Assembly: GCA_031276055.1 (NCBI GenBank)
Contig: JAISNW010000217.1
Coordinates: 1 to 15,851, forward strand
Length of the DNA: 15,851 nucleotides
Source of the DNA: Deferribacteraceae bacterium
Lineage (GTDB): Bacteria > Chrysiogenota > Deferribacteres > Deferribacterales > JAISNW01
Reading direction: 5' to 3'
How positions within the stretch are numbered: position 1 is the stretch's first letter; each line of letters starts with the position of its first letter. Below are positions 1,202-15,851 of this stretch, piece after piece. The position numbers and the translations under genes are program-made. The notes below the pieces were generated by a model. It made no database searches. It was not told the DNA's origin and saw only the letters and a list, made by a program, of their open reading frames with translations.

Positions 1202-1203
1202 GG

Positions 1204-2568
1204 CTACATCACCACTTCAAGATCTTCATCTGCAGAATCTTCATCCTGCCTATCCATGAGGGCGTTTGTTATCTTTTCCACAAAGCGGAGCGCCCCCGTA
1301 TAGCCTAATGTGGGAAAATAAGGGTGGACGTATCTATCTAAAATAGGAAAGCCCGCCCTCACAAAAGGGATATCCTCCGCCTTTGCTATCTGTTTGCCGT
1401 ATGAAGAGCCTAACAGCAGATCAACTCCGTCATTTTTTATCCACTGATGCAGTTCAAAGAGATCTGCAGCCGCTTTAGCTTTGCAATCAGAGCGCCCATA
1501 CCTCTTAAAAAGCTCCTCCGCCTTGCGCGTAAAGCTATCCCCTGGAGTGCCCGTTATAACATATTTCGGGATCATCCCCATCTCTAAAACAAGGCTTGTA
1601 AGCCCCAACACCATATCAGGATCGCCGAAGACGGCAACGCTCCTATCTGAAAGGTAAAAGTGGGAATCAAGGATAACATCTATAAGCTGCCCGCGCTCTT
1701 CCTCTAATTCATAGGGAACTTCATTTTTTGCCCAGCGGGAGAGTTTCATCAAGAATTCATCGGTATTTACAATCCCTATCGGAAGAGGGAGGAGGGTATA
1801 AGCAACCCCGCACTTTCTAAGCAGAGCGTTGGCAGGTTCTTCACTGGTCAACTCCCCTAAGGCGAATACGCGCTCGCAATCCCCCATATTCTCTATCTCG
1901 GCAATGGTGGTTCCCCCCTTAGGATACATGGAATAATGCCCTGTCATAGGTGCATCCATAACCTGGCTGGCGTCTGGAAATAAGGTGATAGATGCGCCAA
2001 TAGCTTTTGCCATCCGTTTCAACTCCCGCATGTCGCCGGGGTTTACAAAGCCAGGGAATATCCCCGCCTTCCCATTCGGCTTTCCGCTCTTTTTGCTAAG
2101 ATAGCGGATAAACCCCGCCATCATATTAAAATATCCATTTATATGGCTGCCGACATAGCTGGGGGTATTTGCGTGCACAACATATTTCCCTTCTGGAATA
2201 TCCATATCTTGAATATAAGCGTTCATATCGTCGCCTATCGTCTCTGAAAGGCATGTAGTGTGGACGGCGATAATATCTGGCTTATAGATGTCAAATATAT
2301 TTTTTACAGAAGTTTTTATATTTGAGCCGCCTCCAAAAACTGACGCCCCCTCTGTAAAAGAGCTGGTGGAGGCTATAGCGGGCTCCTTAAAGTGTCTGCT
2401 TAAAAAGGTTCTATGATAAGATGCGCACCCTTGCGAGCCGTGGCTGTGGGGCATACACCTATGAACCCCTAAAGCCGCATAAAGCGCCCCTACCGGCTGG
2501 CAAGTTTTACACGGATTTATCCGCAGAGCTTCTCTGTCTATTATAGCTGTTGGGGTTAGATCAAGCAT
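1204..2568 (-). CDS. nifK: NifK, nitrogenase MoFe protein beta subunit
   Basis: Beta subunit of the MoFe protein; with NifD it holds the P-cluster that passes electrons from NifH to the FeMo cofactor. The 454-residue product has the P-cluster ligands C23 (KTCQPVGA), C48 (GSQGCASYHR) and C106 (HTTCLSETIGDD). S137 in NTPSYVGSH matches the serine that can ligate the P-cluster in Azotobacter. It starts only about 20 residues before the first P-cluster motif, as in the short clostridial-type NifK, and lacks the roughly 50-residue N-terminal extension of proteobacterial NifK. The C-terminus is a strongly acidic tail (DEDSADEDLE). The reading frame stays open upstream to 2766, inside nifD, but the ATG at 2568 is chosen because it has a near-perfect AAGGAGG Shine-Dalgarno (2574-2580) and overlaps the nifD stop by 8 bp. 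The nifE start follows 2 bp after the stop. Confidence 0.97.
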   Translation of the reverse strand: MLDLTPTAIIDREALRINPCKTCQPVGALYAALGVHRCMPHSHGSQGCASYHRTFLSRHFKEPAIASTSSFTEGASVFGGGSNIKTSVKNIFDIYKPDIIAVHTTCLSETIGDDMNAYIQDMDIPEGKYVVHANTPSYVGSHINGYFNMMAGFIRYLSKKSGKPNGKAGIFPGFVNPGDMRELKRMAKAIGASITLFPDASQVMDAPMTGHYSMYPKGGTTIAEIENMGDCERVFALGELTSEEPANALLRKCGVAYTLLPLPIGIVNTDEFLMKLSRWAKNEVPYELEEERGQLIDVILDSHFYLSDRSVAVFGDPDMVLGLTSLVLEMGMIPKYVITGTPGDSFTRKAEELFKRYGRSDCKAKAAADLFELHQWIKNDGVDLLLGSSYGKQIAKAEDIPFVRAGFPILDRYVHPYFPTLGYTGALRFVEKITNALMDRQDEDSADEDLEVVM

Positions 2569-4162
2569 CTTCGCCTCCTTGCACCAAAGCGCCCTCCAAA
2601 ACCGGCTTATTCTTCCAAGGCGGCGTAACAAGCGACCAAACAGGAGTGTATATCCCCATAGTAATATCTCGGGCGAAATTAATCGCCCCCTTAAAGCCTG
2701 AATACGGACCGCTGTAATCGTAAGAGTGCAGCTGCCTTGAGAGCACCCCCGCCTTCTGCAAAACATATTTATCTTTGATTCCAGAGAGGAATATATCAGG
2801 TTTCAACTCCTCTAAAAAAGCCTCTGTTTCGTAATGGTTGAGATCATCCACTACAACGCTTCCCGCCTGCATATCGGGGATAAGCCCGTGGTATTCTTCT
2901 AGTTGAATACTCTGCCTCAACTCTGCATAACGCTCTGGAGTGTGAAAGCTCTTATAGTGGTTTTCATCCCGCTCTACTTCAATGTGCTCTATATTCTTAT
3001 TATCCGCATCCTCTTTTATGTTTGGAATAACCTTACGCCCCTCATAGTCGTCCCGATGGCCGAACTCGTGCCCTGCAAGGACGGTCTTTACCCCAAAATC
3101 CGCCAATAAGTATTGGTAATGGTGGGACCTTGACCCCCCTACAAATAGAGCGGCTGTCTTCCCTTTTAGCTTTTCTCGGTAATAGGCGCGCTCAGCGCTT
3201 ATCTGTTCCAACTCATCTGCAATAACAGACTCTGTGCGCGCAGTTATCTCGTCATCCCCAAAGTAGAGCGCAATCTCCCTAAGGGTGCTTATGGTGGCGT
3301 CTATCCCAATAAAGTTTACCTTTACCCAGTCTATGCCGTATCTGGTTTTCATCATCTCGGCGATATAGTTTATAGAGCGGTGGCACTGCACTAAGTTTAG
3401 GTTCGCTAGGTGGGCGTTCTGCAACGTCTCAACGCTGCCATCCCCTGTCATAACCGAGACTACTTCATAGCCTATCCTCTTCAGCAAACGCTCTGTTTCC
3501 CAACCGTCGCCGCCGATATTATATTCCCCTAAGAGATTGACGGAAAATTTAGTTTTCGGCGGTTTATCCCCCGTTCCTATAACTCGGCGCATAACTCCGT
3601 TATTGGCGATATGATGCCCCCCGCTCTGGCTTACCCCCTTATACCCTTCACAGCTGTAAGCAACGCAGCGTATCCCATATTTTTTTTCAGTTTCCGCCGC
3701 CACCGCGTGAATGTCGTCTCCGATAAGCCCGACGGGGCAGGTGGAGCAGATCATTATGCAGGAAGGCTTAAATATTTCATAAGCCTCTTGAATAGCTTGA
3801 CGGAGCTTTTTTTCTCCGCCAAAAACGACATCAGGCTCCTGCATATCTGTTGAAAAGCAGTATTGTATAAAATTTCTGCCGTCTTCGGTTTTGGCTTTAT
3901 TTCGGCGCGTCCCCCAGGAGTAAAAGCCGCACCCAATCGGACCGTGTGTTATAAGCAGAACATCTTTTAGAGGTCCTAAAACCACCCCTTTGCACCCTGC
4001 ATAGCAGCAACCGCGGTTGGTCATTATACCAGGGATGCTTCGAGAGTTTGCTGCTATCTGCTGCTCTTCGGTGCATTCGTCTATCTCAAGGATATGCTCT
4101 TTGCGGTTTTTATACACCTTGGCGCTGTATCTATCCAGCACCTTTGCTTTTGAGTTCGGCAT
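2561..4162 (-). CDS. nifD: NifD, nitrogenase MoFe protein alpha subunit (Clostridium pasteurianum-like)
   Basis: Alpha subunit of the MoFe protein and carrier of the FeMo cofactor, where N2 is reduced. The 533-residue sequence shows P-cluster ligands C52 (TNRGCCYAG), C78 (GPIGCGF) and C142 (STCPVGLIGDD). The cofactor ligands are C260 (LVQCHRSINYI) and H479 (RQLHSYDYSGPY). The substrate-pocket residues Q179 and H183 lie in VSQSGGHHIAN. Residues around 370-440 carry the extra segment of about 50 residues typical of the C. pasteurianum type and absent from Azotobacter NifD, which explains the length. These residues argue for the molybdenum enzyme rather than VnfD or AnfD, and no delta-subunit gene (vnfG or anfG) follows nifD. 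The ATG has a GGAG Shine-Dalgarno and lies 10 bp after the nifI2 stop. The 3' end overlaps nifK by 8 bp. Confidence 0.98.
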   Translation of the reverse strand: MPNSKAKVLDRYSAKVYKNRKEHILEIDECTEEQQIAANSRSIPGIMTNRGCCYAGCKGVVLGPLKDVLLITHGPIGCGFYSWGTRRNKAKTEDGRNFIQYCFSTDMQEPDVVFGGEKKLRQAIQEAYEIFKPSCIMICSTCPVGLIGDDIHAVAAETEKKYGIRCVAYSCEGYKGVSQSGGHHIANNGVMRRVIGTGDKPPKTKFSVNLLGEYNIGGDGWETERLLKRIGYEVVSVMTGDGSVETLQNAHLANLNLVQCHRSINYIAEMMKTRYGIDWVKVNFIGIDATISTLREIALYFGDDEITARTESVIADELEQISAERAYYREKLKGKTAALFVGGSRSHHYQYLLADFGVKTVLAGHEFGHRDDYEGRKVIPNIKEDADNKNIEHIEVERDENHYKSFHTPERYAELRQSIQLEEYHGLIPDMQAGSVVVDDLNHYETEAFLEELKPDIFLSGIKDKYVLQKAGVLSRQLHSYDYSGPYSGFKGAINFARDITMGIYTPVWSLVTPPWKNKPVLEGALVQGGEDA

Positions 4163-4172
4163 ATTAAGACTC

Positions 4173-4547
4173 CTAAACTATATTTTCCCCTGTGCGGACA
4201 ACGTATGATTCGTTTATTGGGAGGATGAAGATCCGCCCGTCTCCGGGATTTCCCGTCTGATTTGCCTTGATTATGGTCTTTACCGCCAGTTCAACCTCAT
4301 CGTCATTTATTATCAAGGTAAAAAAACGTTTGGGGATAAGCCTTGTCCCCTCTGTCATAGATTCCCCAAGATCAGATAAAGGAAGTTCCCCTGTGCCCAG
4401 CACAATTTTTAGCAGGTTGGAATCCATATGTTTCTTCCCTCTACCCAGGCAAGGTCGGCAGAGGAAAGCAGGAAAGCCCGCGTTGGCAAGGGCGGTCTTT
4501 GTATCGTTCACCTTGTTTGCCCTAATGAATGTCATCACCTCTTTCAT
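4173..4547 (-). CDS. nifI2: NifI2, PII-like regulator of nitrogenase
   Basis: PII-family signalling protein which, with NifI1, binds the MoFe protein and inhibits nitrogenase when ammonium is available; the inhibition is relieved by 2-oxoglutarate and ATP. This is family knowledge from methanogens. The 124-residue product begins MKEVMTFIRANKV, has LGRGKKHMDS leading into a long T-loop region (about 35-72), and ends with the PII motif TGNPGDGRIF and YVVRTGE. The long T-loop is typical of NifI2 rather than NifI1 or GlnB. The ATG at 4547, with AGGGTG upstream, is preferred because family members begin at this Met. A GTG at 4556, three codons upstream with AAGGG 7 nt before it, is a credible alternative that would leave a 1-bp gap to nifI1. 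The gene lies between nifI1 and nifD in one operon. Confidence 0.93.
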   Translation of the reverse strand: MKEVMTFIRANKVNDTKTALANAGFPAFLCRPCLGRGKKHMDSNLLKIVLGTGELPLSDLGESMTEGTRLIPKRFFTLIINDDEVELAVKTIIKANQTGNPGDGRIFILPINESYVVRTGENIV

Positions 4548-4557
4548 GATAAGCACC

Positions 4558-4884
4558 CTATAACCCTTGTTTACCTGTGCTTATGGTGTAGGCGTCTACA
4601 ACTTGGCTGATGAATATCCGCCCATCTCCATAAGCTCCCTTTTCGCCCGTGCGGGCGTTGCGCATAATAACCCGCACCACATCGTCTTTCTCGTCATCGT
4701 TTACCACGAAGAGCAGCATCTCCTTAGGAATCTCATCATAGTGGACATCCCCTATGGAGAACCCTTTCTGCTTACCTCTCCCGAAAACATCCATCTTAGT
4801 GACCGCAGGAAAACCCGCGGATAGAAGTTCGCTTAAAACGATCCCCACCTTTTCAGGTCTGATAATGGCTCTAATTAACAGCAT
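4558..4884 (-). CDS. nifI1: NifI1, PII-like regulator of nitrogenase
   Basis: First member of the NifI1-NifI2 heteromeric PII pair that controls nitrogenase activity post-translationally. The 108-residue product starts MLLIRAIIRPEKV and has the NifI1 signature GFPAVTKMDVFGRGKQKG at about 28-45, followed by GDVHYDEIPKEML of the T-loop and the C-terminal ATP-site segment GDGRIFIS. Length and order of motifs match the family well. The ATG lies 9 bp downstream of the nifH stop; its Shine-Dalgarno AGGAGGG overlaps that stop codon (TAGGAGGG). NifH and NifI1 translation are therefore probably coupled, with no room for a processing hairpin between them. The pair makes ammonium switch-off by NifI likely here; nothing in the window argues for or against an additional DraT/DraG system. 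Confidence 0.95.
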   Translation of the reverse strand: MLLIRAIIRPEKVGIVLSELLSAGFPAVTKMDVFGRGKQKGFSIGDVHYDEIPKEMLLFVVNDDEKDDVVRVIMRNARTGEKGAYGDGRIFISQVVDAYTISTGKQGL

Positions 4885-4893
4885 AACTCCCTC

Positions 4894-5766
<873 letters not shown>

Positions 5767-5768
5767 TT

Positions 5769-5782
5769 AAGGGAAAACCCTT
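5769..5782 (-). other. Short stem-loop at the predicted 5' end of the nif mRNA
   Basis: AAGGG-AAAA-CCCTT is a perfect 5-bp stem with a 4-nt loop. Extra A/T pairs can form outside it if one base bulges. With the sigma-54 promoter at 5798-5813, transcription should start near 5786-5787, so the stem-loop would sit within the first few nucleotides of the transcript. A 5' hairpin may protect the message from decay; that role is an inference. The remaining leader runs about 50 nt to the nifH ATG and holds two copies of AGAGCGTT. Confidence 0.4.
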
Positions 5783-5797
5783 TAATGCCGATTTAAT

Positions 5798-5813
5798 TGC
5801 AATAACTATGCCA
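5798..5813 (-). promoter_or_regulatory. Sigma-54 (RpoN) promoter of the nif operon
   Basis: On the minus strand the sequence reads TGGCAT-AGTTA-TTGCA. The sigma-54 consensus is TGGCAC-N5-TTGCA, so there is a single mismatch. The invariant GG (5811-5812) and GC (5799-5800) are separated by exactly 10 bp as required. The predicted start is near 5786-5787, giving a leader of about 68 nt before nifH. Sigma-54 control with an activator ATPase is usual for nif operons. No canonical NifA site (TGT-N10-ACA) is seen between 5814 and 6055. Confidence 0.85.
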
Positions 5814-6055
5814 GAACATAACGTTTAATATTGCTTGTAATGCTTAAAAATATAGAAAATCCTTTATGGATAAGGGTTAATTATAAAACGATTATTTTAT
5901 TTTAATATAGATTCAAAAAAATATTTCACCGATATTTTGCAAAAATTGAAAAAATTTAGAAAAAATTGTAAGAATTAAAAAGAAATATTTACAAAATCGT
6001 AATTATTTATTAACTAAGTCTATAATTTTTGATTAATATTTTCAAAAATTGTATA
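5814..6055. other. AT-rich intergenic region upstream of the nif promoter
   Basis: About 240 bp without a credible gene, dominated by A and T runs. It lies between the end of the HNH gene and the nif promoter, where an activator would bind. Three weak structures are visible. A near-repeat occurs at 5932-5948 (ATATTTTGCAAAAATTG) and 6036-6051 (the same without one G). The first copy contains the palindrome TTTTGCAAAA at 5935-5944. A loose inverted pair TTGTAA/TTACAA lies at 5966-5971 and 5989-5994. In sequence this AT-rich any of these may be chance. No G+C-rich terminator hairpin follows the HNH gene, so read-through into nif is possible. Confidence 0.6.
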
Positions 6056-7150
6056 CTAATAGCATCTCACAAACATACATGTTTCAGGATTATAGGTAAT
6101 TACCGTTGCATAACTGAAACTTAAAGAACCACCGGAGCTATAGTGTCCCATAATCATCATATCCTCAACCCCATCGCCGGTAATATCGGATCGGAACATT
6201 TCTATAAGGGTATGACCCTCTCTATGAAAATATGTATCATCGCCGCAATCACTGCCGCAATTTATTGCTATTTCATGTTTGCCAAGTGACTGAATTTTAA
6301 ATACTCCCTTATTAACAGCATCAGCATAAGACGAATAAGAACTATAATCTTCTTCTCCGATCACGGGGTAAAAAGCAGCAGGAAGTTTGTCTAAACTGAA
6401 TAACCCTATATTTTCCATGTAACTTATTTTAGGCGGTTTGGCATTTTTTAAGCCATTAAGTATGGTAAATTGCCTTTCAAACAGACCGGAAAATTTTATT
6501 CCCCAATTATTGCTGGCATAGTAACCTTCAGCATTTGCGTTCGTGTACTCCATACAAGTTTTTACCGTTATACGATCCCCTTGCTCATTTATTAACTCTA
6601 GCTCCTCACCTCTAGGGAGAACTGGGGAGTTAAGCAATGTGTCTATGTCGCTTTTGGAAACATCGGTGATTATGCTATCCGCAAAGCGCAACTCTCCACT
6701 TAAATTCACAGTATCACTGGAAATACTTTGAAGGAGTTTTCTTAATTCTGCTATCTCACTGCCCGTGGGTTCAGATTTCAGAAATGATCGTAATATTTCA
6801 AAGTTATCCCTTCTTTTGTAGTTTTTGAGCAAATTATTGTAAATCTCATTGTATTTATCGATGTTTTTTCTTGCTATATTCAAAAAATAAAGTATAGCCC
6901 CTTTATCAAATAGAACATTGCCTTTTTGTTTATTGTGATACTCACTCACAGGCAGCAGGTTTTCAATGCCATCAACTTTAAAGTTATCTGGAAGGGAATA
7001 TTCTCTTTTCAGATCATTGTTAAATCGACTTTTGGGGATAATATGATCAACTGTTACATCACTGAACTCAATAGGATTGCCCGTATAGGCACATTTTTTC
7101 CCATAAGTTAGCCATAGTGCTTCTTTTTTTATTCCGTTAAGTTTAGACAC
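6056..7150 (-). CDS. HNH-endonuclease-like protein with a C-terminal DxTGDG-containing domain
   Basis: The N-terminal part resembles HNH nucleases: CAYTG, then VDHIIPKS (Asp-His pair), IENLLPVS (Asn) and YHNKQKGN, all within the first 80 residues. This matches the DHIxP...NL...HNxxKGN layout, but only one Cys is present in place of the usual CxxC. The following 75 or so residues are charged and helical-looking. The C-terminal half is unrelated to HNH and carries SDITGDGVEDMMIMG, a calcium-loop or FG-GAP-like motif, 55 residues from the end. I do not recognise the full family and assign no role. The GTG at 7150 (GGGGGA Shine-Dalgarno 6 nt upstream) is preferred, giving 364 residues. An ATG at 7192 would add 14 hydrophobic residues but overlaps the predicted -10 box. 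Spot counts of four 60-base lines give about 33% G+C against about 51% in two nif lines, suggesting acquisition by transfer. Confidence 0.75.
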   Translation of the reverse strand: MSKLNGIKKEALWLTYGKKCAYTGNPIEFSDVTVDHIIPKSRFNNDLKREYSLPDNFKVDGIENLLPVSEYHNKQKGNVLFDKGAILYFLNIARKNIDKYNEIYNNLLKNYKRRDNFEILRSFLKSEPTGSEIAELRKLLQSISSDTVNLSGELRFADSIITDVSKSDIDTLLNSPVLPRGEELELINEQGDRITVKTCMEYTNANAEGYYASNNWGIKFSGLFERQFTILNGLKNAKPPKISYMENIGLFSLDKLPAAFYPVIGEEDYSSYSSYADAVNKGVFKIQSLGKHEIAINCGSDCGDDTYFHREGHTLIEMFRSDITGDGVEDMMIMGHYSSGGSLSFSYATVITYNPETCMFVRCY

Positions 7151-7190
7151 TAGAAATCCCCCATAAAACATCATAGCAAAGCAGAGATAC

Positions 7191-7217
7191 ATTATAATTT
7201 CCCTTATTAGTTGTCAA
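7191..7217 (-). promoter_or_regulatory. Sigma-70-type promoter of the HNH gene
   Basis: On the minus strand a perfect TTGACA (7212-7217) is followed after 15 bp by a perfect TATAAT (7191-7196). The 15-bp spacer is shorter than the ideal 17; a 17-bp spacer would instead give TAATGT. With TATAAT as -10 box, transcription starts near 7184, downstream of the ATG at 7192. That favours the GTG start at 7150 for the HNH gene. Confidence 0.6.
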
Positions 7218-7224
7218 CAATATT

Positions 7225-7270
7225 CATTTTTAACGTTCTCCATGCGCCGAAGGCGTTAAACGTTAAAATG
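7225..7270. repeat. Inverted repeat between divergent promoters
   Basis: The left arm CATTTTTAACGTT (7225-7237) and the right arm AACGTTAAAATG (7259-7270) are complementary over 12 bp with one bulged T. Between them CGCC-GAA-GGCG forms a small inner hairpin, so the whole can fold into one stem with an internal loop. Each arm contains the palindrome AACGTT. It lies between the divergent promoters of the HNH gene and the outer-membrane gene, upstream of both. It could be a paired operator, a structured element or a remnant of a small palindromic repeat; the sequence alone does not decide. Confidence 0.65.
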
Positions 7271-7311
7271 GGTTTGTAATACAAAAAATTAACGGCGGCG
7301 GGGGATTTGCC

Positions 7312-7340
7312 TTGAAATGTAAATATTATTCGTATATATT
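7312..7340 (+). promoter_or_regulatory. Sigma-70-type promoter of the outer-membrane protein gene
   Basis: TTGAAA (7312-7317) and TATATT (7335-7340) are separated by 17 bp, the optimal spacing. Transcription would start near 7347, about 36 nt before the ATG at 7383, which has a GGGGG Shine-Dalgarno at 7374-7378. Confidence 0.6.
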
Positions 7341-7382
7341 GCTATCGTTTTATTTATCTTGACTAATTATATTGGGGGTTCT

Positions 7383-8399
7383 ATGAAAATTCTATCAGCT
7401 CTTGTCTCGTTTCTCTTTGTTGTTCCTCTCTTTTTTAACGTTAGCGCTTTTGCCGCCAATATTGAGGATGGCGCATTTTTAGCGGATAAAAACAGTTTTG
7501 CCTACCGGTTGTATCTTAATTCCAGCTACAAAAACACCATCAAAGAACCGAGGGGGTATGGTTCTTATAACGACATTTATAAGGGCTCTCTCGATCTATA
7601 TTACGGTTTAACCGAAGATATAACCCTCGCATTTCAAGGGATATATAACTATAACGGCACAGAGGATAGAAAAGGGGTTCAAAAAGCAAATTTGGTGAGC
7701 TTTATCCGCGCCGCTGACGACGTTTTCTTCTTTGACGTGCTTTTAGGGATGAGCTTAGGGGGGATTTTAGACGCCGAAATGGAAGCGAAAGTAACAGGCA
7801 CTGTTGGAGGCGATACTGAAGAAAAGATTTCACCTAGAAATTACTCCTATGGGATGTATGGGGTTATAGCAGGCGGACGTTTCGGTATGAAGGCAACCCC
7901 TAATCTGACTATGGCAATCCTCTTTGAGGCGACTCATAGATTTTCTCAAGACGACACTATAGATGCTGAAGTGGATGCTACAGGATTGAGGCATCAATCA
8001 TTGCCTGTTACAGGCACTAAATTTAAGGCAAAGGGAACATTTAAGCCCCTTACAGACTATTACACTCAGATTGCATTCTCTTACAAAGCTGCTGATAAAA
8101 TATACGTCAACACCAAATTTGGCTATCAATACTATGCCGAAAAGCACCTAAAGGAAGCTCGTGTGGATTCTGCTTCTGCTAACGCTATCGATGAAGGAGT
8201 TATAACGCAACTTGTTGCTCAGGGCAGGTTGAACGACTCTTGGTATGAATTCTCTTTTGGAATATCAGGGATATACACCATCACCAACTACCTGCAGGTA
8301 GGTCCCTACTATGAATATATGTCAGGCAAGAATGAAACAGGAGCCCTCCAAACAAAACAGCGGATGGAATATGGGCTGCGCATAAACGGGGCGTTCTAG
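7383..8399 (+). CDS. Putative outer-membrane beta-barrel protein, family not recognised
   Basis: The 338-residue product begins with a clear signal peptide: MKIL, a hydrophobic core to about residue 20, and a signal-peptidase I site near AFA-AN at 22-24. The mature part has no membrane helix. It is rich in Tyr, Phe and Gly with many short alternating segments such as ITLAFQGIYNY, LTMAILFEATHRF and KIYVNTKFGYQYY, and ends in Phe (RINGAF). This is the pattern of an outer-membrane beta barrel inserted by BamA. I cannot assign a substrate or family. The frame is open to a TTG at 7359, but the ATG at 7383 is chosen because it has a GGGGG Shine-Dalgarno and puts the signal peptide at the N-terminus. 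It has its own promoter and is probably a single-gene unit, divergent from the HNH gene. Confidence 0.85.
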   Translation: MKILSALVSFLFVVPLFFNVSAFAANIEDGAFLADKNSFAYRLYLNSSYKNTIKEPRGYGSYNDIYKGSLDLYYGLTEDITLAFQGIYNYNGTEDRKGVQKANLVSFIRAADDVFFFDVLLGMSLGGILDAEMEAKVTGTVGGDTEEKISPRNYSYGMYGVIAGGRFGMKATPNLTMAILFEATHRFSQDDTIDAEVDATGLRHQSLPVTGTKFKAKGTFKPLTDYYTQIAFSYKAADKIYVNTKFGYQYYAEKHLKEARVDSASANAIDEGVITQLVAQGRLNDSWYEFSFGISGIYTITNYLQVGPYYEYMSGKNETGALQTKQRMEYGLRINGAF

Positions 8400-8414
8400 G
8401 GGCTCTAAATCGCT

Positions 8415-8439
8415 AGTGCAAAGCAGCCGCCCCTGCACT
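8415..8439 (+). terminator. Possible terminator hairpin after the outer-membrane gene
   Basis: AGTGCA (8415-8420) and TGCACT (8434-8439) form a 6-bp stem around a 13-nt G+C-rich loop, 15 bp after the stop codon. The nearest T-run (TTTTTT) begins at 8451, 11 nt after the stem, which is too far for a textbook intrinsic terminator. It may act with the palindrome that follows. Confidence 0.3.
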
Positions 8440-8450
8440 TAAAACCCCGC

Positions 8451-8472
8451 TTTTTTATGCAAGCATAAAAAA
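8451..8472. repeat. Perfect A+T-rich palindrome
   Basis: TTTTTTATGC and GCATAAAAAA are perfectly complementary over 10 bp with AA between them. Because its arms end in T- and A-runs, it would place a U-run at the foot of a short hairpin in transcripts from either strand. It lies between the outer-membrane gene and mazG, so a terminator or protein-binding role is possible. The rest of 8473-8562 shows nothing clear, and no strong promoter for mazG is seen. Confidence 0.55.
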
Positions 8473-8562
8473 TGCAAGGGTGAAGGGGAATTTAAGATGG
8501 GCAGCTAAACTTCGCTATTTTTAAGTTGTAATTTTACTTCTAATAATGTTTACTCTGTAATT

Positions 8563-9324
8563 ATGGATAGCTTTGACCGCCTGAAAGAGATAGTTAAACA
8601 CCTTAGAGGTGAAAACGGTTGCCCATGGGATAAGGCGCAGACTCTTCAGAGCATGAGAGATGATTTTATTGAAGAAGTTTATGAAGCGGTGGAAGCCCTT
8701 GATAGGCTAGATATCGATAATATCCGTGAAGAGCTGGGGGATGTTCTCCTGCATGTCGTTCTACATGCACAGATCGCTGAAGAAAGCGGTCTTTTCAATA
8801 TAGATGATGTTATCCGCACTATAAACGGAAAGCTCATACGCCGCCACCCCCATGTTTTCGGGGGTGAGGTTATATCTGATAAAGATATGGTTATAAAAAG
8901 ATGGGAGCAGATTAAACGAGAGGAGAAAGCCAACGCTCCCAGCCTCTTAGATAAGGCAAATAAGGCTCTGCCTCCTCTTGAGAAGGCGCATAAACTCCAA
9001 GCTTGTGCGGCAAAGGCAGGCTTTGATTTCCCAACTGACGCCGCTATGCTTGAAAAGGTTGAAGAAGAGCTATTGGAGTTAAAAAACGCTCTACTTCAGA
9101 GAGATGTCGGTTCACTAAAAGAGGAAACAGGTGATCTCTTATTCGCTATAGTCAATCTTGCCCGCCGACTTAACTTTACAGCCTCTGAAGCGCTTAGGGG
9201 CGCAAATGATAAGTTTGTCCGCAGATTTAATTATATACAGGCGCATATCCCAGATATTGCATCAACTCCCCTTGCTGAGTTAGATGCGCTATGGGAGAAA
9301 GCTAAGAAAGATGAACAGATTTAG
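8563..9324 (+). CDS. mazG: MazG, nucleoside triphosphate pyrophosphohydrolase
   Basis: MazG hydrolyses nucleoside triphosphates to monophosphates and pyrophosphate, clearing aberrant dNTPs and, in some bacteria, affecting ppGpp levels. The 253-residue product has the two tandem MazG domains of the full-length type. The first shows CPWDKAQTLQSM at 20-31 and the metal-binding acidic residues E37, E38, E41 (FIEEVYEA) and E57, D60 (REELGDVL), with RRHPHVFG at 93-100. The second shows KVEEELLEL at 165-173 and KEETGDLLF at 186-194. The ATG has no strong Shine-Dalgarno. The stop overlaps the start of the downstream permease gene by 14 bp, so the two are probably cotranscribed and coupled. Confidence 0.95.
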   Translation: MDSFDRLKEIVKHLRGENGCPWDKAQTLQSMRDDFIEEVYEAVEALDRLDIDNIREELGDVLLHVVLHAQIAEESGLFNIDDVIRTINGKLIRRHPHVFGGEVISDKDMVIKRWEQIKREEKANAPSLLDKANKALPPLEKAHKLQACAAKAGFDFPTDAAMLEKVEEELLELKNALLQRDVGSLKEETGDLLFAIVNLARRLNFTASEALRGANDKFVRRFNYIQAHIPDIASTPLAELDALWEKAKKDEQI

Positions 9325-10405
9325 CATCTATACCATAAAGATCTTCCTTAAATACCTCTTAATTGTTCAATTTTTTGTAACCATAGTCTCTATGGTTTCT
9401 GCCGCATATACCTACTTGCAAGAGAGTTTTCGCGCCCATGTTACCCTCTGGCATATAATAAATATGGAGATTATTAAACTTCCCGCCACTATCAACAGCT
9501 CCCTCCCAATATCCATCGTTGTTGCAAATATCGTTGCCGTTCTCCTCTTAGTCCGCAGCAACGAGCTTTTAGCCTACTCTAGCATTGGTGGGCGGATCAC
9601 TCGTTTTACAATCCCTCTAATATTGGTATCTTTTATAGCAGCTTTAGGCATGTATTGCTCTTACTCTCTCCTATACGCAAATACTAGAATAGCCTATGAA
9701 CGCTATAGAACAGAAAAGATACTGAAAGAACCTTATAACCCTCTGAGAGAAAAGGTTTCAAACCTCTGGTCTATGGATGGTTCAACCCTTGTCCATATTG
9801 ATTTTGTTGACAATACCCAAAATTACATTAGCAATATCTCTGAATACTATATGGATGCCGCTTTTATGATAAGCTCTGTGCGGAATATTGAAAAAGCTGT
9901 CTATGACAATCAGAGCGGAAACTGGGAGTTTTTCAACGTATACGATACTGACCTAACCCAAAAACCGCCGATAACAAATTTTACCGAAAAGACCAGTTCC
10001 ACAGGGCAGCTCTTGCAAGATATTGTAGCGATAGCCGAAAAACGCCAACCTAAAACCCTCTCACTGGGGGAGATTTCACGGCTCATAAAGTTGATGAAGG
10101 CAAAGGGGCTCTCCGCCAATAAACATGAGATGATCTTATACTCCCGTTATGCAAGCACCCTCTCTGTTATAGTGCTGACGCTTCTTGTAGTGCCTATAGG
10201 GATAACTTTCAATAGGCGCTTCTCCCCTTTAAGAAACGCCTCTATCGCCTTTGGCCTCGCCCTCGCCTTCTGGATTACCTTTTCAGCCTTTAAGTCGCTT
10301 GGGGAATCTGAGGTGCTCCCCCCCTTTGCCGCTAATTTCCTCCCCCACATCATATTCATTATCGCAGGCTTATTTATACTATATAAAAAAGAGAGTGCAG
10401 GTTAA
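9311..10405 (+). CDS. LptF/LptG-family lipopolysaccharide transport permease
   Basis: Inner-membrane permease of the YjgP/YjgQ family. In the Lpt system LptF and LptG sit with the ATPase LptB and drive lipopolysaccharide out of the inner membrane. The 364-residue product has the family layout: three N-terminal membrane helices (about 13-33, 55-82, 97-122), a periplasmic domain to about 280, and three C-terminal helices (about 284-303, 310-330, 336-358). SNELLAYSSIGG at 83-94 is the usual cytoplasmic loop after helix 2 that contacts LptB. Sequence alone does not tell LptF from LptG; only one copy is present, although the two are often adjacent. The ATG at 9311 is chosen over an upstream start at 9284 because it begins at the family N-terminus. 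It overlaps mazG by 14 bp, and the NfeD-like gene follows after 2 bp. Confidence 0.9.
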   Translation: MNRFSIYTIKIFLKYLLIVQFFVTIVSMVSAAYTYLQESFRAHVTLWHIINMEIIKLPATINSSLPISIVVANIVAVLLLVRSNELLAYSSIGGRITRFTIPLILVSFIAALGMYCSYSLLYANTRIAYERYRTEKILKEPYNPLREKVSNLWSMDGSTLVHIDFVDNTQNYISNISEYYMDAAFMISSVRNIEKAVYDNQSGNWEFFNVYDTDLTQKPPITNFTEKTSSTGQLLQDIVAIAEKRQPKTLSLGEISRLIKLMKAKGLSANKHEMILYSRYASTLSVIVLTLLVVPIGITFNRRFSPLRNASIAFGLALAFWITFSAFKSLGESEVLPPFAANFLPHIIFIIAGLFILYKKESAG

Positions 10406-10407
10406 TT

Positions 10408-10944
10408 ATGGAAACCATCCTTTTAATATTGCTTATTATCTCAGGGCTTTTATTTATTGTGCAGGCTATTCTCAGCTTTGCAGGGGTTGGCTTTGAGCTT
10501 GATTTTGATCTTGAAGGGGGTGCAACAGACTCCCCCTTTGGAATGCTGACAATACGCAACTTAATAACCTTTGTATTAGGCTTTTCATCGGGAGCTTATA
10601 TCCCATTAAAATTTGGAGCGCCCGTCCCCATTGCCCTAATTTCAGGGGTTATTTTTGGCGGGCTGCTCTCGGCGGTTATAATAGTTGGTTTAAGATTTCT
10701 CATAAAACTTCAGCAGATAAATAAGGTTGAGAGCCATGAATATAGAGGGCTTACAGCAAAGGTGCTGGTTAAGATAGGTCCAGAGCGTTCATCCGCAGGG
10801 AAGGTGGAGTTTGTGCTGCACGAAAGGATAGACGAGATGCTTGCTCTCTCTGATGAAAAAACAGCCCTGCACCCTGGAGAAGAGGTTTATGTGTCAAGGC
10901 TTTTAGAAAATGGGATGCTCTTAGTGGCAAAAGCGATGATCTGA
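10408..10944 (+). CDS. NfeD-like membrane protein with C-terminal OB-fold domain
   Basis: The 178-residue product has a membrane helix at about 3-26, two more at about 48-66 and 72-100, and a soluble C-terminal domain from about 110. The segment YRGLTAKVLVKIGPERSSAGKVEF, then PGEEVYVSRL and MLLVA, fits the NfeD OB-fold beta pattern. NfeD-type proteins usually work with stomatin/flotillin (SPFH) proteins in membrane organisation, and their genes are often adjacent. None is present here: the gene is instead 2 bp behind the Lpt permease, so it is probably the last gene of the mazG operon. It is closer to the short YuaF/NfeD1b type than to the long protease-fused NfeD. The family call is moderately sure; the role is unknown. 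Confidence 0.75.
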   Translation: METILLILLIISGLLFIVQAILSFAGVGFELDFDLEGGATDSPFGMLTIRNLITFVLGFSSGAYIPLKFGAPVPIALISGVIFGGLLSAVIIVGLRFLIKLQQINKVESHEYRGLTAKVLVKIGPERSSAGKVEFVLHERIDEMLALSDEKTALHPGEEVYVSRLLENGMLLVAKAMI

Positions 10945-10968
10945 AGTAAAAAAATAATCGCTGCCCCC

Positions 10969-10997
10969 TTGATATTTAATAACTCATGGATTATATA
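10969..10997 (+). promoter_or_regulatory. Sigma-70-type promoter of the FmdB-type gene
   Basis: TTGATA (10969-10974) and TATATA (10992-10997) are separated by 17 bp. TATATT at 10994-10999 is an alternative -10 with a 19-bp spacer. The predicted start, near 11004, leaves a leader of about 30 nt with GAGGTG as Shine-Dalgarno. Confidence 0.5.
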
Positions 10998-11033
10998 TTA
11001 TAGCCTGATCATAAAATATTTATGAGGTGAAAG

Positions 11034-11288
11034 ATGCCTATTTATGAATATGTATGCAAAGAGTGCGGGAAGAAGATAGAGAAGTTAGTAACTTCAATCT
11101 CGGGAGCGGACAGCATCCCTTGCAGCTGCGGAGGAACAGCCGATAAAATATTGTCTCTATCTTCTTTTCAACTAAAGGGGAGCGGTTGGTATCGTTCAGA
11201 TTATAAAAAAGAGCCTAAACAAGAAACATGCCCCGCCAAAACAGACTCTCCGTCTTGCAACGCGTGCCCTCACAGCGCCGCTCAATAG
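11034..11288 (+). CDS. FmdB-type small zinc-ribbon protein
   Basis: An 84-residue protein that begins MPIYEYVCKECGKKIE, the hallmark of the FmdB/CxxC_CXXC_SSSS zinc-ribbon family. C8 and C11 form the first knuckle. The second is CSCGG at 30-34, with CxC spacing instead of the usual CxxC. The core ends with FQLKGSGWYRSDY, also typical of the family. The tail adds three further cysteines (ETCPA, PSCNACPH), common in longer members. Proteins of this family have been linked to regulation of formamidase and amidase genes, but most have no known role. The ATG is preceded by a good GAGGTG Shine-Dalgarno. It has its own promoter and stands alone, convergent with nhaB. Confidence 0.9.
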   Translation: MPIYEYVCKECGKKIEKLVTSISGADSIPCSCGGTADKILSLSSFQLKGSGWYRSDYKKEPKQETCPAKTDSPSCNACPHSAAQ

Positions 11289-11298
11289 TTCTACATTT

Positions 11299-11339
11299 AG
11301 TTTGCGGTGCATACCGCCCCGCAAACTCTCACACTTTTT
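11299..11339 (+). terminator. Terminator between convergent genes
   Basis: AGTTTGCGG (11299-11307) and CCGCAAACT (11319-11327) form a perfect 9-bp stem 10 bp after the FmdB-type stop; TTTTT follows at 11335-11339. Within it GCGGT-GCAT-ACCGC (11304-11317) can form a competing 5-bp hairpin. The gap of 7 nt before the T-run makes it an imperfect intrinsic terminator. It lies between convergent genes and may serve both directions. Confidence 0.65.
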
Positions 11340-11343
11340 AGAT

Positions 11344-12804
11344 TTATAAGAGAAATCTTGTAGCTAAAAGCCCTATAGATGTCATAATTATCGTATATGG
11401 AAGCGCTAGTTTCATCATCTCGATATACGAAAGGCGGATAAGCGGCGCTAGTGATGAAGTTAGCAGAAATAGGAAAGCAGCTTGCCCATTAGGAGTTGCA
11501 ATAGAGGGAACATTTGTTCCCATATTCACAGAAACAGCTAGTTTACTATACCATGCATGGTCAAAAGCCCCTGCCTGAAAAGCGGCTTGAAGCTCGTTTA
11601 TATAGACCGTAGCCACAAAAACGTTGTCGCTTATCATAGAGAGGGCGCCGTTTGCAAGGAATAGCAACAGAAGCTGTTTTTCGCCTTCAGCCGCAAGGAC
11701 TATCTTTGTGATCGGAGCAAATAGGTGCAGATCATGAATCACCGCTACTATACTGAAGAATACCACCAAGAGCGCTGTAAATGGCAACCCGTCGTGAAAA
11801 GCTCCGCCAAACTCCTCTTCTTTTACTATCCCATTAAAAGCAGTAAGGATGATAATAACTGAAAGCCCTATGAACCCTACTTCAGCAAGATGGAACGCAA
11901 GCGCAAATACTAAAAGAACGCCCACAACCCCTTGAATAATTAGACGTAGACGCATAGCGGAATCGATTGATGCGCTTAAATCCTTTTCAGATTTTGCAAG
12001 CACCTTTCTGACGCCATCGGGGAGTTTATAGCCGTAACCCCAAAACTTAAACTTCTCAAGGAGAAAGCAGGTAAATATCCCTGATATTCCAACAGGAACT
12101 GAAACAGGCGAACAGTTGCGGAAAAAATCTGCAAAGCGCCACCCTAGCCTTTCACCTATTAGAAGGTTTTGCGGCTCTCCAACCAACGTCATCGCGCCGC
12201 CTAGCGTAGTGCCGACCGCAGCGTGCATCATAAGATTCCGCAAAAACCCCTTGAACTCTTGCATATCTTCTTTAGGAAGCGGGTTATTTGCAAGGGTGGA
12301 GGCTTCATCAAACTTTTTATACAGCGTAAAAAAGCCGTAAGCAACCGAGATTACAACAGCTGTTACTGTTAGGGCGTCTAAAAAGGCTGAAAGGAACGCT
12401 CCCAGCCCGCAAAAGACCATAGACAGCAGAATTTTAGAGCGGAATTTGAGCAAAATCCTAGTGAAGAGCACCAAAAGCCCTTCCTTCATAAAGTGCACCC
12501 CTGCCACCATAAACATAAGTAAGAGGAGCACAGGGAGGTTTTGCGCCACTTCATTGTATACTGACGAAGGCGACGCCATCCCTAAGATCACCGCCTCAAT
12601 CGCCAAAAGCCCACCCGCAGGCAATGGGTAGCAGACCAGAGCAAAGGCGAGGGTGAATATAAACTCTAAAATCAACACCCAACCCGCAAGAAAAGGGTTT
12701 ATGTAAAATAAGAGCGGGTTTATAAGGATGAACACCGCTATGGTCATCTTATACCAGAGCGGTGCACTCCCTAAAAAACTTTTTACAAAAACGGAATCTG
12801 TCAA
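11344..12804 (-). CDS. nhaB: NhaB, Na+/H+ antiporter
   Basis: NhaB exchanges cytoplasmic Na+ for external protons, keeping intracellular sodium and pH in range. The sequence follows E. coli NhaB closely from end to end: GSAPLWYKM, AGWVLILEFIFTLAFAL, LPAGGLLAIEAV, FLSAFLDALTVTAVVIS (D143, matching the Asp essential in E. coli NhaB), MTLVGEPQNLLIGE, LHLAEVGFIGLSVIII, and ATPNGQAAFLFLLTSSLAPL near the C-terminus. The TTG at 12804 gives 486 residues and is chosen because AAGGA lies 7 nt upstream, the N-terminus then matches the family, and it overlaps the kinase TGA as TTGA. A GTG at 12846 would add 14 residues without a Shine-Dalgarno. No own promoter is evident, so nhaB probably depends on the upstream kinase gene. 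Confidence 0.95.
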   Translation of the reverse strand: MTDSVFVKSFLGSAPLWYKMTIAVFILINPLLFYINPFLAGWVLILEFIFTLAFALVCYPLPAGGLLAIEAVILGMASPSSVYNEVAQNLPVLLLLMFMVAGVHFMKEGLLVLFTRILLKFRSKILLSMVFCGLGAFLSAFLDALTVTAVVISVAYGFFTLYKKFDEASTLANNPLPKEDMQEFKGFLRNLMMHAAVGTTLGGAMTLVGEPQNLLIGERLGWRFADFFRNCSPVSVPVGISGIFTCFLLEKFKFWGYGYKLPDGVRKVLAKSEKDLSASIDSAMRLRLIIQGVVGVLLVFALAFHLAEVGFIGLSVIIILTAFNGIVKEEEFGGAFHDGLPFTALLVVFFSIVAVIHDLHLFAPITKIVLAAEGEKQLLLLFLANGALSMISDNVFVATVYINELQAAFQAGAFDHAWYSKLAVSVNMGTNVPSIATPNGQAAFLFLLTSSLAPLIRLSYIEMMKLALPYTIIMTSIGLLATRFLL

Positions 12805-15800
12805 ATAGTGTTCCTTGTTCTCAAGTACTCGTATATCTCGTTGCACAATTGTAGCACAGCAGGTTTTAGTTTTGCAAGAGCTTCGTTGGCGTCATTTACC
12901 GAGAAAAGTTCATTGCTGGCTATCTGTTCAAGAGATAAGCAGAGGTCGCGCACAACTCCCGAGAAGTAGGCGGCGCTGCTATTAAGGCTATGGGCGCAAT
13001 TTTTAAGCAACTTCCCATTTGAAGTCTGAATAGCCTTTTCCACCTCGCCTAACAAGGAGTGGACATTGTTTAAGAAAACTTCCATAGTTTGCGGGATAAT
13101 ATTTTCCACACCTAAGAAGTTCTTCTTCAGAAACTCCCTATCAAGTATAGACTCTGTAGGAACATTGGAAGTTACGCTTGCTACAGTGTGTTCAATAACG
13201 CTCTTTAAGGAATCCATGAAGACAGGTTTTGTAAGGTTTCCATCCATCCCAAGTTCACGGTAGCGCTCCTGCTCTGTTCTGCTGGTAACAGGGGTTAGGG
13301 CTATTATTGGGGTGTATGTCTTGTTCTTTTCGCAAAGTTTGCGGATTTCACGTATTATAAGCCCGCCGTCATGCTGCGGAATCCTAAGCACCATTAGGAT
13401 AATGAAAAAGTTCTTCTCTCTGCAAGCCTCAAGAGCTTCAGAGCCGGAGGAAACAACCTTCACAGAGTAGCCTAGTTTGGAGAGGTGGCGTTGAGTAACT
13501 ATCTGATTCAATTCGTCATCTTCCACAAGGAGAGCCTCAAAGTTCTTGTTGAGAACTTTCCTTTCAGTATCTCTGCCTTTCGCGGAGGCGTCTGCACTTA
13601 GAGTAACCCTAATAGCATCAAGGAGTTTCTCTTTATCTACAGGTTGAACAATATAATTGTCCATGCCAAGCGGGAGGAAATTGCCCGCCTCATCAACATT
13701 GGAAACTTTGGTGACGGCGATTATCGGAACATGTTTCTGTGTTCTTTCTTCCTCCATCTTTATCTTAGAGATAGCAACCCCTATGCCCTGAACAGGAGAT
13801 TGAGTATCTATAATTATGAGATCAAGCTCTTCGTTCTTGTGGGCTTCTACAGCATCATCTCCAGTTAGAGCCACCTTAGTGTTGTTGCCTAGCTCTGCTA
13901 GAAGACCTGAAATTTCATTTCTGCTCTGCTCAGAATCATCAACAAGGAGAACGTTCAACTCTTTGAACATCTGCCTCTTGAGCTCTTTAGAGATGGTGGA
14001 GAGGTTGTTGGAGCGAAGGATCGCGTTCATTAAGTCAAACGGGAGCACAGGCTTCATAAGCACAGAGGAGAATAGCTCCCTCTCCTCATAGGAGCAGTCA
14101 ACATGGCCGGAGGTTAAGAGAATCAATGGAATAGACTTAGAGTATTGGTTGCTTTTAAGGTTTTTAGCCAGCTCAAGCCCTGTCTGATTGGGCATATACA
14201 TGTCAATGATGATGAAGTCAAAGGATTTTGCAAGAGTTTCGCCTATTATGCGCTGCGCCTCGCTGGCGTTGGCCGCCTCAAGGGTGTTGACCTTCCACTT
14301 CGCTAAGAGCTTGCATATAACATTGCGCGACATATTGTTGTCTTCCACCACAAGAGCTTTAAGCCCGGTGAGCTGCGCCTCATTTTTAACGGTGGCGTCG
14401 GTGGTGATCGATCTGTCTGAATATGCAAGGTAGAGATCAAACCAGAAACGGCTGCCGCTGCCTACTTCACTATCAAGGTTTATCCTAGAGCCCATCATGA
14501 AGAGGAGCTTTTTAGAGATAGCAAGCCCTAAGCCTGTGCCGCCTGATTTAGTAGCTATATCTTTTGATTGCAGCTCAAACACGTCAAAGATGCGTTCCTG
14601 ATTCTCTTTAGGTATCCCTATCCCTGTATCGCTGACAGCGAAACGGAGAGCTACAGTGGAAGAATCTTGATTTTGGATGCTGACCGATAGGAGAACATTG
14701 CCTGAGTTCGTGTATTTTATGGCGTTGGAGAGAAGGTTCATGAGAACTTGCGCTACACGGAGAGGATCGCAGAAAACAAATTCAGGGATCTCCTGATCTA
14801 TATCCACTACAAGATCAAGGTTCTTTTCGTGCGCAAGGTGCGAAACGCTCCCTACAGCGCTGTATATAAAGTTAAAAAGGTTTACCTCTTCTCTAGTAAG
14901 AACTATAGCGCCCGCCTCTAGTTTGGAGAAGAACATAATATCGCTCATAAGCTCCATAAGGTTATTGCCGGCTTTTCTAATCATATTAAGCCTTGCGCGT
15001 TGGTCAGGGGAGAGCTTAGTTGAAAGCATGGATTCTGCTGATTCCAGAACACCGCTTAGGGGGGTGGAAACCTCATTGCTTATATTGTTAAGGAAGATGG
15101 TTTTAGCGCGGTTAAGCCCTTCCACCCCTTCTTTTGCGACCCTTAGCGACTCGGTGCGATCATCAACTATCCTTTCAAGGTCTGTATTGAATTTAATAAC
15201 ATCATCTTCAGCGGCGTAACGGCGTTCTAGGTTGCCAAGAAGGTTGCTAGTGGATGCTATCAAGATGATCAATATCATAACCCATACTGCTATATGGGAG
15301 ATTATAAGAATTCTATTTGTTTCAACCGTGCGCAAGAGGTAAGGTTCATACGAGATGCGCGTGGAGATTCCGCCTGCTATATCGCCGTATTTATACCCTT
15401 GCGTTCTATGGCATGGGATGCAGCGCTCCTCAACTTTAAGAGGTCCCATAAATCTGAGGAATTGAAGCCCTGAAGGGTCTGCAACAAGCTCGCTGTATTC
15501 CAGAGAGCCGCCGCGAATCTTTGCAAGGGCCGCAGCCTCCCAATCATCAGGCTTATTGGCTTCACGTATAGGCTTTTCGCTGGTAATGTGCCGTTTTAGG
15601 TCAGCATTTACAACCCCAATCTCGTAAACAAGCCGAGTCATGTAGGCTGGGTTTATATAAGTTAGGGTGGTTCCACTACGTGTTACAACGGTTCTCTGCC
15701 CTTCAGGAAGGTAGAGATTAGGGCGCGCTTTGTCTGAAGTTTCAGTGTATAAACCGCCTAATGTCAGATTCCAACGCCAATAGATCATATCTGTTTCATA

Positions 15801-15851
15801 GATGGTCTTAGCTTGGAATTGAGCATTTTCATAAGCGCTCTTTTTAGTGTT
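12801..15851 (-). CDS. Hybrid sensor histidine kinase, DUF3365 haem sensor-HisKA-HATPase-REC-REC-REC-HPt (5' end beyond the window)
   Basis: The visible 1016 residues stay open to the right edge, so the start and first membrane helix are missing. Numbering is from the Met at 15788. Residues 1-155 are a periplasmic DUF3365 (Tll0287-like) domain (WRWNLTLGGLY, INPAYMTR) with the c-type haem motif CIPCH at 123-127. A membrane helix spans 160-179 and a linker coiled coil about 185-228. HisKA reads FLNNISNEVSTP at 232-243, with Asn238 where the phospho-acceptor His is expected. HATPase boxes look intact: NLLSNAIKYT, DTGIGIP, GGTGLGLAIS. REC1 (about 476-592) keeps D529 and K579. REC2 (about 611-728) keeps D661 but has Q715 for Lys. 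REC3 (about 750-868) has V800 for Asp and keeps K854. The C-terminal HPt has H933 in CAHSLNSSAA. The stop overlaps the nhaB start by 4 bp. It probably senses redox, oxygen or NO, but autophosphorylation seems unlikely. Confidence 0.93.
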   Translation of the reverse strand, partial: NTKKSAYENAQFQAKTIYETDMIYWRWNLTLGGLYTETSDKARPNLYLPEGQRTVVTRSGTTLTYINPAYMTRLVYEIGVVNADLKRHITSEKPIREANKPDDWEAAALAKIRGGSLEYSELVADPSGLQFLRFMGPLKVEERCIPCHRTQGYKYGDIAGGISTRISYEPYLLRTVETNRILIISHIAVWVMILIILIASTSNLLGNLERRYAAEDDVIKFNTDLERIVDDRTESLRVAKEGVEGLNRAKTIFLNNISNEVSTPLSGVLESAESMLSTKLSPDQRARLNMIRKAGNNLMELMSDIMFFSKLEAGAIVLTREEVNLFNFIYSAVGSVSHLAHEKNLDLVVDIDQEIPEFVFCDPLRVAQVLMNLLSNAIKYTNSGNVLLSVSIQNQDSSTVALRFAVSDTGIGIPKENQERIFDVFELQSKDIATKSGGTGLGLAISKKLLFMMGSRINLDSEVGSGSRFWFDLYLAYSDRSITTDATVKNEAQLTGLKALVVEDNNMSRNVICKLLAKWKVNTLEAANASEAQRIIGETLAKSFDFIIIDMYMPNQTGLELAKNLKSNQYSKSIPLILLTSGHVDCSYEERELFSSVLMKPVLPFDLMNAILRSNNLSTISKELKRQMFKELNVLLVDDSEQSRNEISGLLAELGNNTKVALTGDDAVEAHKNEELDLIIIDTQSPVQGIGVAISKIKMEEERTQKHVPIIAVTKVSNVDEAGNFLPLGMDNYIVQPVDKEKLLDAIRVTLSADASAKGRDTERKVLNKNFEALLVEDDELNQIVTQRHLSKLGYSVKVVSSGSEALEACREKNFFIILMVLRIPQHDGGLIIREIRKLCEKNKTYTPIIALTPVTSRTEQERYRELGMDGNLTKPVFMDSLKSVIEHTVASVTSNVPTESILDREFLKKNFLGVENIIPQTMEVFLNNVHSLLGEVEKAIQTSNGKLLKNCAHSLNSSAAYFSGVVRDLCLSLEQIASNELFSVNDANEALAKLKPAVLQLCNEIYEYLRTRNTI

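Follow-up and report, generated by a model that had tools for sequence, protein, structure and literature searches.

A hybrid histidine kinase gene that runs off the end of a Deferribacteraceae contig encodes asparagine at the position of the phospho-acceptor histidine. We consider it moderately probable that the encoded protein, here called A, is a fixed, working pseudo-histidine kinase that acts as an allosteric, ATP-gated co-sensor and, like DivL, is no source of phosphate. The residue losses in A and the constraint on it are observed. The sensor, the ATP pocket and one receiver appear, from the sequence comparisons below, to be what selection has kept. The DNA analysed (the window, 15,851 nucleotides) is the whole of contig C3 of genome G000, positions 1-15851, and A reaches its end. 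The features discussed are:

12801..15851, minus strand: protein A, a Tll0287-HisKA-HATPase-REC-REC-REC-HPt hybrid pseudo-histidine kinase whose 5' end is truncated at the contig edge
15354..15842, minus strand: Tll0287-like sensor domain of A (PF11845, c-heme Cache), from Pfam
15408..15422, minus strand: CIPCH c-type heme motif of A (C144, C147, H148), invariant in 12 of 12 sequences of alignment A1
14910..15104, minus strand: HisKA (DHp) domain of A, remodelled, 12 of 26 conserved columns changed
15075..15077, minus strand: Asn259 at the phospho-acceptor His position of A (Asn238 from Met 15788)
14430..14768, minus strand: HATPase_c domain of A, N, G1, F and G2 boxes intact
14016..14369, minus strand: REC1 of A, all five phosphorylation residues present, Asp550 at 14204..14202
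13602..13958, minus strand: REC2 of A, Asp kept, conserved Lys replaced by Q736 (Q/R/Q/Q in the family)
13188..13541, minus strand: REC3 of A, phospho-acceptor Asp replaced by Val821 (codon 13391..13389), domain absent from P0004
12843..13139, minus strand: HPt-like domain of A, under the Pfam cut-off, absent from P0004
11344..12804, minus strand: nhaB Na+/H+ antiporter, TTG start at 12804..12802; a GTG start at 12846 was also offered by ORF calling

The minus-strand frame of A is open for 1016 codons, to the contig end. The G000 assembly is fragmented (1.56 Mb in 262 contigs, 78% complete). By alignment, the orthologues P0002 and P0003 start 40 residues further upstream than the window copy; judged from these orthologues, the 40 N-terminal residues of A, including the first hydrophobic helix, are absent from the window. 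The initial annotation had counted the H-box asparagine as residue 238 from a methionine at 15788. The count is correct, but because A runs off the contig end and P0002 and P0003 begin 40 residues upstream, this methionine is internal and not the start. The same asparagine is residue 259 in the open frame and 299 in P0002.

Pfam assigned to A a Tll0287-like sensor, HisKA, HATPase_c and three receivers, with an HPt match that falls short of its cut-off. The PF11845 match scored 53.4 bits against a cut-off of 24.1 and, together with the CXXCH motif, places A in the Tll0287/DUF3365 c-heme Cache class. In an AlphaFold2 model of A (45 sequences) the DHp is predicted as a pair of long helices and the CA domain as a mixed fold, with a mean pLDDT of 82, a pTM of 0.46 and moderate confidence in the DHp. 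The DHp-CA part also matches solved kinases by sequence, the best being 7z8n, with RetS and DivL among the others.

The H-box of A reads FLNNISNEVSTP, with asparagine in place of the phospho-acceptor histidine, and the minus-strand translation around it is FLNNISNEVSTPLSGV. Translation confirmed the annotated substitution at 15075..15077 and its codon, AAT (15077..15075), which is one base off CAT. The reported change of the H-box arginine to serine was found at H+3 in all four members of the A family, and the N, G1 and G2 boxes, described earlier as intact, are so, as is the F box. On its sequence, A lacks the defining feature of a HisKA autokinase, the phospho-acceptor histidine, and is not expected to autophosphorylate in the usual way.

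The substitution had been seen correctly, but the lesion is wider than had been noted. Of 26 conserved DHp columns, 12 are changed in all four A members; these include the phospho-acceptor His, the +3 Arg, a +11 Gly and an Asp of helix 2. Three or fewer are changed in each of 41 other homologues; conserved columns were defined on those 41 homologues themselves, so that their low departures arise partly by construction. In the ATP domain, A differs at 4 of 36 conserved columns, against up to 6 in the 41 others, and the construction effect does not touch the difference between its own DHp and CA domains. The initial annotation was silent on the receivers and the HPt. Compared with CheY, REC1 has all five residues and is complete in all four A members, the Lys of REC2 is replaced (Q/R/Q/Q), and the Asp of REC3 is Val in all three members that have the domain. 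The HPt His (His954 in the window copy, 12992..12990) is kept in the three A members having that domain and the domain is absent in one. This member, P0004, ends after REC2 with an unrelated tail and is without REC3 and HPt; a frameshift in its assembly may be the cause.

The protein search for A covered 5.8 billion proteins, of which 8000 candidates were scored by most shared words and the best 120 of 801 matches taken. Among these 120 the A orthologue group has four members: the window copy (P0001), P0002 (88% identical to it), P0003 (87%) and P0004 (80% over 75% of the query). Among named relatives, the Deferribacteraceae MAG isolate Pcl387_bin162 is the closest, at 88% identity. After the A family the next match in this set is 35% identical, and the score falls from 1393 to 500 bits. 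P0005 (35%), the closest homologue with a Tll0287 sensor outside the family among the same best 120 of 801, has the His that A does not. Alignment of the orthologues, proposed earlier as a check of the H-box column, gave Asn in all three and His in none; all four A members read N-E-V-S at the H-box in alignment A1. Outside the A family, His was present in 236 of 236 aligned homologues, against Asn in 4 of 4 A members. A profile made from 227 His-bearing homologues and run on 240 homologues yielded 255 domain matches: 249 with His, 4 with Asn (the A family) and 2 partial matches that lack the box, each from a protein with His in a different match. The two genomes of the genus, G000 and G001, hold 29 HisKA matches (14 + 15), 27 with His and 2 with Asn, the latter being A in each genome.

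At E <= 1e-90, A was found in 2 of 50 phylum genomes, its own included, both of this genus, and no further orthologue was found in these 50. The genome searches for A and B (see below) scored 13-16 candidates per genome. With P0004 as query, no viral-contig relative was confirmed. The evidence base for the A family is four sequences and two genomes, from metagenome assemblies, and in these known members the acceptor loss appears fixed (4/4, one clade).

Between G000 and G001, A is 87.6% identical, compared with 83.9% for nhaB and 70-82% for eight intact kinase pairs, which were matched by hand on H-box and contig similarity and of which a wrong pairing would lower the pair identity. The most conserved domains of A in this comparison are HATPase (94.7%), REC1 (93.2%) and REC3 (93.2%). 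The dN/dS of A was 0.050 versus 0.066-0.095 in the eight intact kinase pairs, ratios that are rough because dS is near-saturated. Purifying selection thus appears to maintain the gene; this dN/dS, the 1016 open codons and the Asn shared by orthologues bear out the earlier statement that it is not decayed. In a tree of 67 kinase cores, A forms one clade with full support (bootstrap not settled), with a stem of 1.69 and tips of 0.01-0.07, branch lengths that indicate much change and then little. The initial annotation's reading of A as a pseudokinase that is conserved, retains an intact ATP site and carries a heme-sensor domain is supported.

In the mechanism that we propose for A as an allosteric pseudokinase, its c-heme Cache domain, predicted to be periplasmic, would sense NO or redox state. 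Binding of ATP by the CA domain would set the conformation of the non-phosphorylatable DHp helices, REC1 would be phosphorylated by another kinase of the same cell, and contact between proteins would relay the combined state to a partner, either a kinase or a regulator. According to a preprint, Tll0287 domains fused to signalling modules show NO-sensor properties (PMC12889525, preprint), and it is by analogy with this source that we infer heme, NO or redox sensing by A. Na+/H+ antiport would be a plausible target, given the gene overlap with nhaB; any role of A in sodium or proton control is conjecture. The intact ATP site could be equally compatible with A as the kinase of another protein, and DivL, reported to bind ATP weakly (PMC4211667), models an ATP-gated A only in part. 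Three roles had been suggested for A in the initial annotation. Allosteric partner is the best fit; REC1 and perhaps the HPt would allow a role as phosphate acceptor, REC2 being without its Lys and REC3 without its Asp; the phosphatase role is not favoured (H+4 is T, T, I, A in the family).

The acceptor role is taken furthest by a scheme in which A is a phosphorelay station that passes phosphate between other proteins via REC1 and HPt and makes none, which we regard as unlikely. The model is RcsD, which likewise has a pseudo-histidine kinase domain and an HPt. The HPt of RcsD is described as exchanging phosphate with RcsB (PMC3762810). A REC1 complete in 4 of 4 members and 93% identical between the two genomes is as expected of such a station, as is the HPt His in the three members with the domain, but P0004 has neither REC3 nor HPt, and a search for a stand-alone REC3-HPt protein closely related to A found none (29 matches, best 32% identical over 82%). 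The HPt of A also scores under the Pfam cut-off, as does that of P0005, and its H+3 and H+4 residues are N and S, versus K/R at +3 and, in three of four, G at +4 in the four non-A homologues of alignment A1 that carry an HPt. A further differs from RcsD in its three receivers and intact ATP domain, and in lacking the HPt in one of four members.

A second protein, outside the view of the initial annotation on another contig, bears on whether A could act in trans. Protein B (Tll0287-HisKA-HATPase-REC-HPt, 894 aa) is encoded on contig C16 of G000 (locus L096, 1237-3921, minus strand) and on contig C190 of G001 (L101), where it adjoins obgE, rpmA and rplU (named by eye). Its orthologues P0122, P0123 and P0124 are 61-71% identical (among the best 120 of 264 matches, again from 8000 scored candidates). 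The His and the +4 Thr are present in all four B members, but the Glu after the His (A/S/S/S) and the G2-box glycines are lost; B also has Lys for N412. Part of the ATP domain is kept (N-box Asn416 and G1), and residual ATP binding may persist. All four members depart at 8 of 37 ATP-domain, 7 of 30 DHp, 5 of 40 REC and 0 of 9 HPt conserved columns. In the tree of 67 cores, the sister of the B kinase core is an intact kinase from this genus (support 97/80; bootstrap not settled). Taken alone, B reads as a kinase-dead protein, which may still be a phosphatase or phosphotransferase.

The opposite defect of B and its equal restriction to the genus suggest a split kinase, in which the ATP domain of A would phosphorylate in trans a His (DHp or HPt) of B. 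We consider this rather unlikely, for all that the two proteins are complementary: in 4 of 4 members each, A has an ATP domain without the His and B the His with a disabled ATP domain. They are the only kinases of the genus seen without the H-box His (2 of 29, A) or the G2 glycines (2 of 28 readable, B), carry the same sensor class and have at least four known members each. Full-length A and B were found at E <= 1e-60 only in G000 and G001 among 59 genomes, their own included. HisKA is the most conserved domain of B between the two genomes (87%), a place held by HATPase in A, and B keeps its receiver and an HPt without departures at conserved columns. CheA3/CheA4 of Rhodobacter sphaeroides offer a precedent, described as a kinase domain without His together with a His without kinase domain (PMC3591291); the same source proposes split HisKA kinases in print and notes EnvZ split in vitro. 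CheA3/CheA4 belong to the CheA family and have lost whole domains, whereas A and B are HisKA hybrids of full length that have lost single residues; B, as the acceptor, is also without the catalytic Glu, unlike that case. This Glu is reported as required for HisKA autophosphorylation (PMC3510030), and with its loss in 4 of 4 B members the DHp His lacks what phosphorylation requires, although the intact HPt might serve as acceptor in its place. The departures at 7 of 30 DHp columns in every B member and the 31% identity between the DHp domains of A and B likewise speak against trans-phosphorylation. The two genes lie on different contigs in both genomes, but these contigs are short and the genes may still be linked. 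Finally, there are two lesioned kinases in all, and the opposite lesions may be coincidence. The fuller form of this idea, a natural split HisKA hybrid kinase of A and B, each dead alone, whose signalling would need both heme sensors at once, is quite doubtful; here the target His of B would possibly be that of its intact HPt, in the manner of the P1 domain of CheA. That two heme-sensor hybrids of a single genus carry opposite lesions permits a direct test of two-part enzymes outside the CheA family.

A could instead phosphorylate a Ser or Tyr of its own, or a partner, as MsmS is reported to do and as has been suggested for RdmS, which we hold to be quite improbable. These redox sensor kinases of Methanosarcina acetivorans are, like A, without a phosphorylatable His (PMC11784639, PMC6944256), and MsmS is heme-based, as is predicted for A, and is reported to be Tyr-phosphorylated (PMC6944256). 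RdmS is described as binding and hydrolysing ATP, with no autophosphorylation under reducing conditions and with Tyr phosphorylation reported earlier under oxidising conditions (PMC11784639). The intact ATP site of A, Glu260 (H+1) and the Ser at H+3, both kept in 4 of 4 members, would suit such a kinase, but the sequence shows no sign of the activity and the phosphotransfer surface of the DHp is widely altered. MsmS and RdmS are moreover archaeal PAS/GAF proteins described as without an H-box, whereas A is a bacterial hybrid that keeps the box with Asn.

That A is a dedicated phosphatase for a response regulator is very unlikely. Loss of the His need not abolish HisKA phosphatase activity, as reported for CrdS, although it did in PleC (PMC3510030), and H+4 is Thr in both the window copy and P0002. 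This Thr is described as required for HisKA phosphatase activity (PMC3510030), and it is Ile in P0003 and Ala in P0004, compared with Thr in 249 of 251 matches outside the A family (two are not aligned there). Because the required Thr varies as T, T, I, A, a conserved phosphatase role for A is unlikely.

Sequencing error, recent mutation or gene decay, to which the single base between AAT and CAT might point, was ruled out, with practically negligible probability left to it, because the Asn also stands in three orthologues on other contigs and the gene, with its 1016 open codons, is under strong purifying selection.

Among known systems, the preferred reading of A as an allosteric pseudokinase is closest to DivL, a pseudo-histidine kinase of Caulobacter described as working without kinase activity (PMC4211667). 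Both have a HisKA-type fold without the phospho-acceptor His, and in both the loss is conserved in orthologues. The position is Tyr in DivL, with Ala in one homologue (PMC4211667), and Asn in A; ATP binding by DivL is reported as weak, whereas the ATP boxes of A are intact. DivL has multiple N-terminal PAS domains, whereas the sensor of A is of the c-heme Cache type and the protein carries three receivers; Pfam found Tll0287 and no PAS in the four A members. By these comparisons A lacks the DivL family features of Tyr at the His position and N-terminal PAS domains. The sensor domain and CXXCH motif are shared with the Tll0287/DUF3365 c-heme Cache sensor kinases (PMC12889525, preprint). A laboratory-evolved ChrS is a further pseudo-histidine kinase; native ChrS is reported to form heterodimers with HrrS, and the truncated form did not show heterodimers (PMC9491836).

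Pseudo-histidine kinases are already known, and Asn for His in a c-heme Cache hybrid is a variant of them. Literature searches within an open-licence library showed no Asn-for-His c-heme Cache hybrid whose ATP domain is intact and whose DHp is remodelled, and no earlier case from this phylum or involving this sensor. Few natural bacterial pseudo-histidine kinases among those compared have an apparently intact ATP site, which makes A a suitable case for studying the role of ATP binding where there is no phosphotransfer.

The stop of A and the start of nhaB overlap in TTGA at 12801-12804. The same overlap is present in the other genome of the genus, and for this reason A and nhaB are probably cotranslated. 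Beyond nhaB the neighbouring genes differ between the two genomes; the upstream side of A is not comparable because the window ends inside A. NhaB is reported in a cockroach Deferribacterota ectosymbiont (Te. cryptocerci) and not in a termite one, and these two ectosymbionts of gut protists are described as having reduced signal-transduction repertoires and genomes without nitrogenase (PMC12887300).

The window also carries a molybdenum nitrogenase cluster (2-5718, minus strand: nifH, two PII-like genes, nifD, nifK and nifE), with nifE cut by the contig end and a NifK score just below the curated cut-off. An ORF of 378 aa at 6056-7192 (minus strand) encodes an HNH domain with a Cas9 HNH match of 27 bits against a cut-off of 100; it is too short to be Cas9. 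Elsewhere in G000, on contig C28, locus L005 (3-1184) encodes a Tll0287 protein 38% identical to the sensor part of A, followed by an apparent GGDEF domain (by eye), which would possibly read the same signal as A into cyclic di-GMP.
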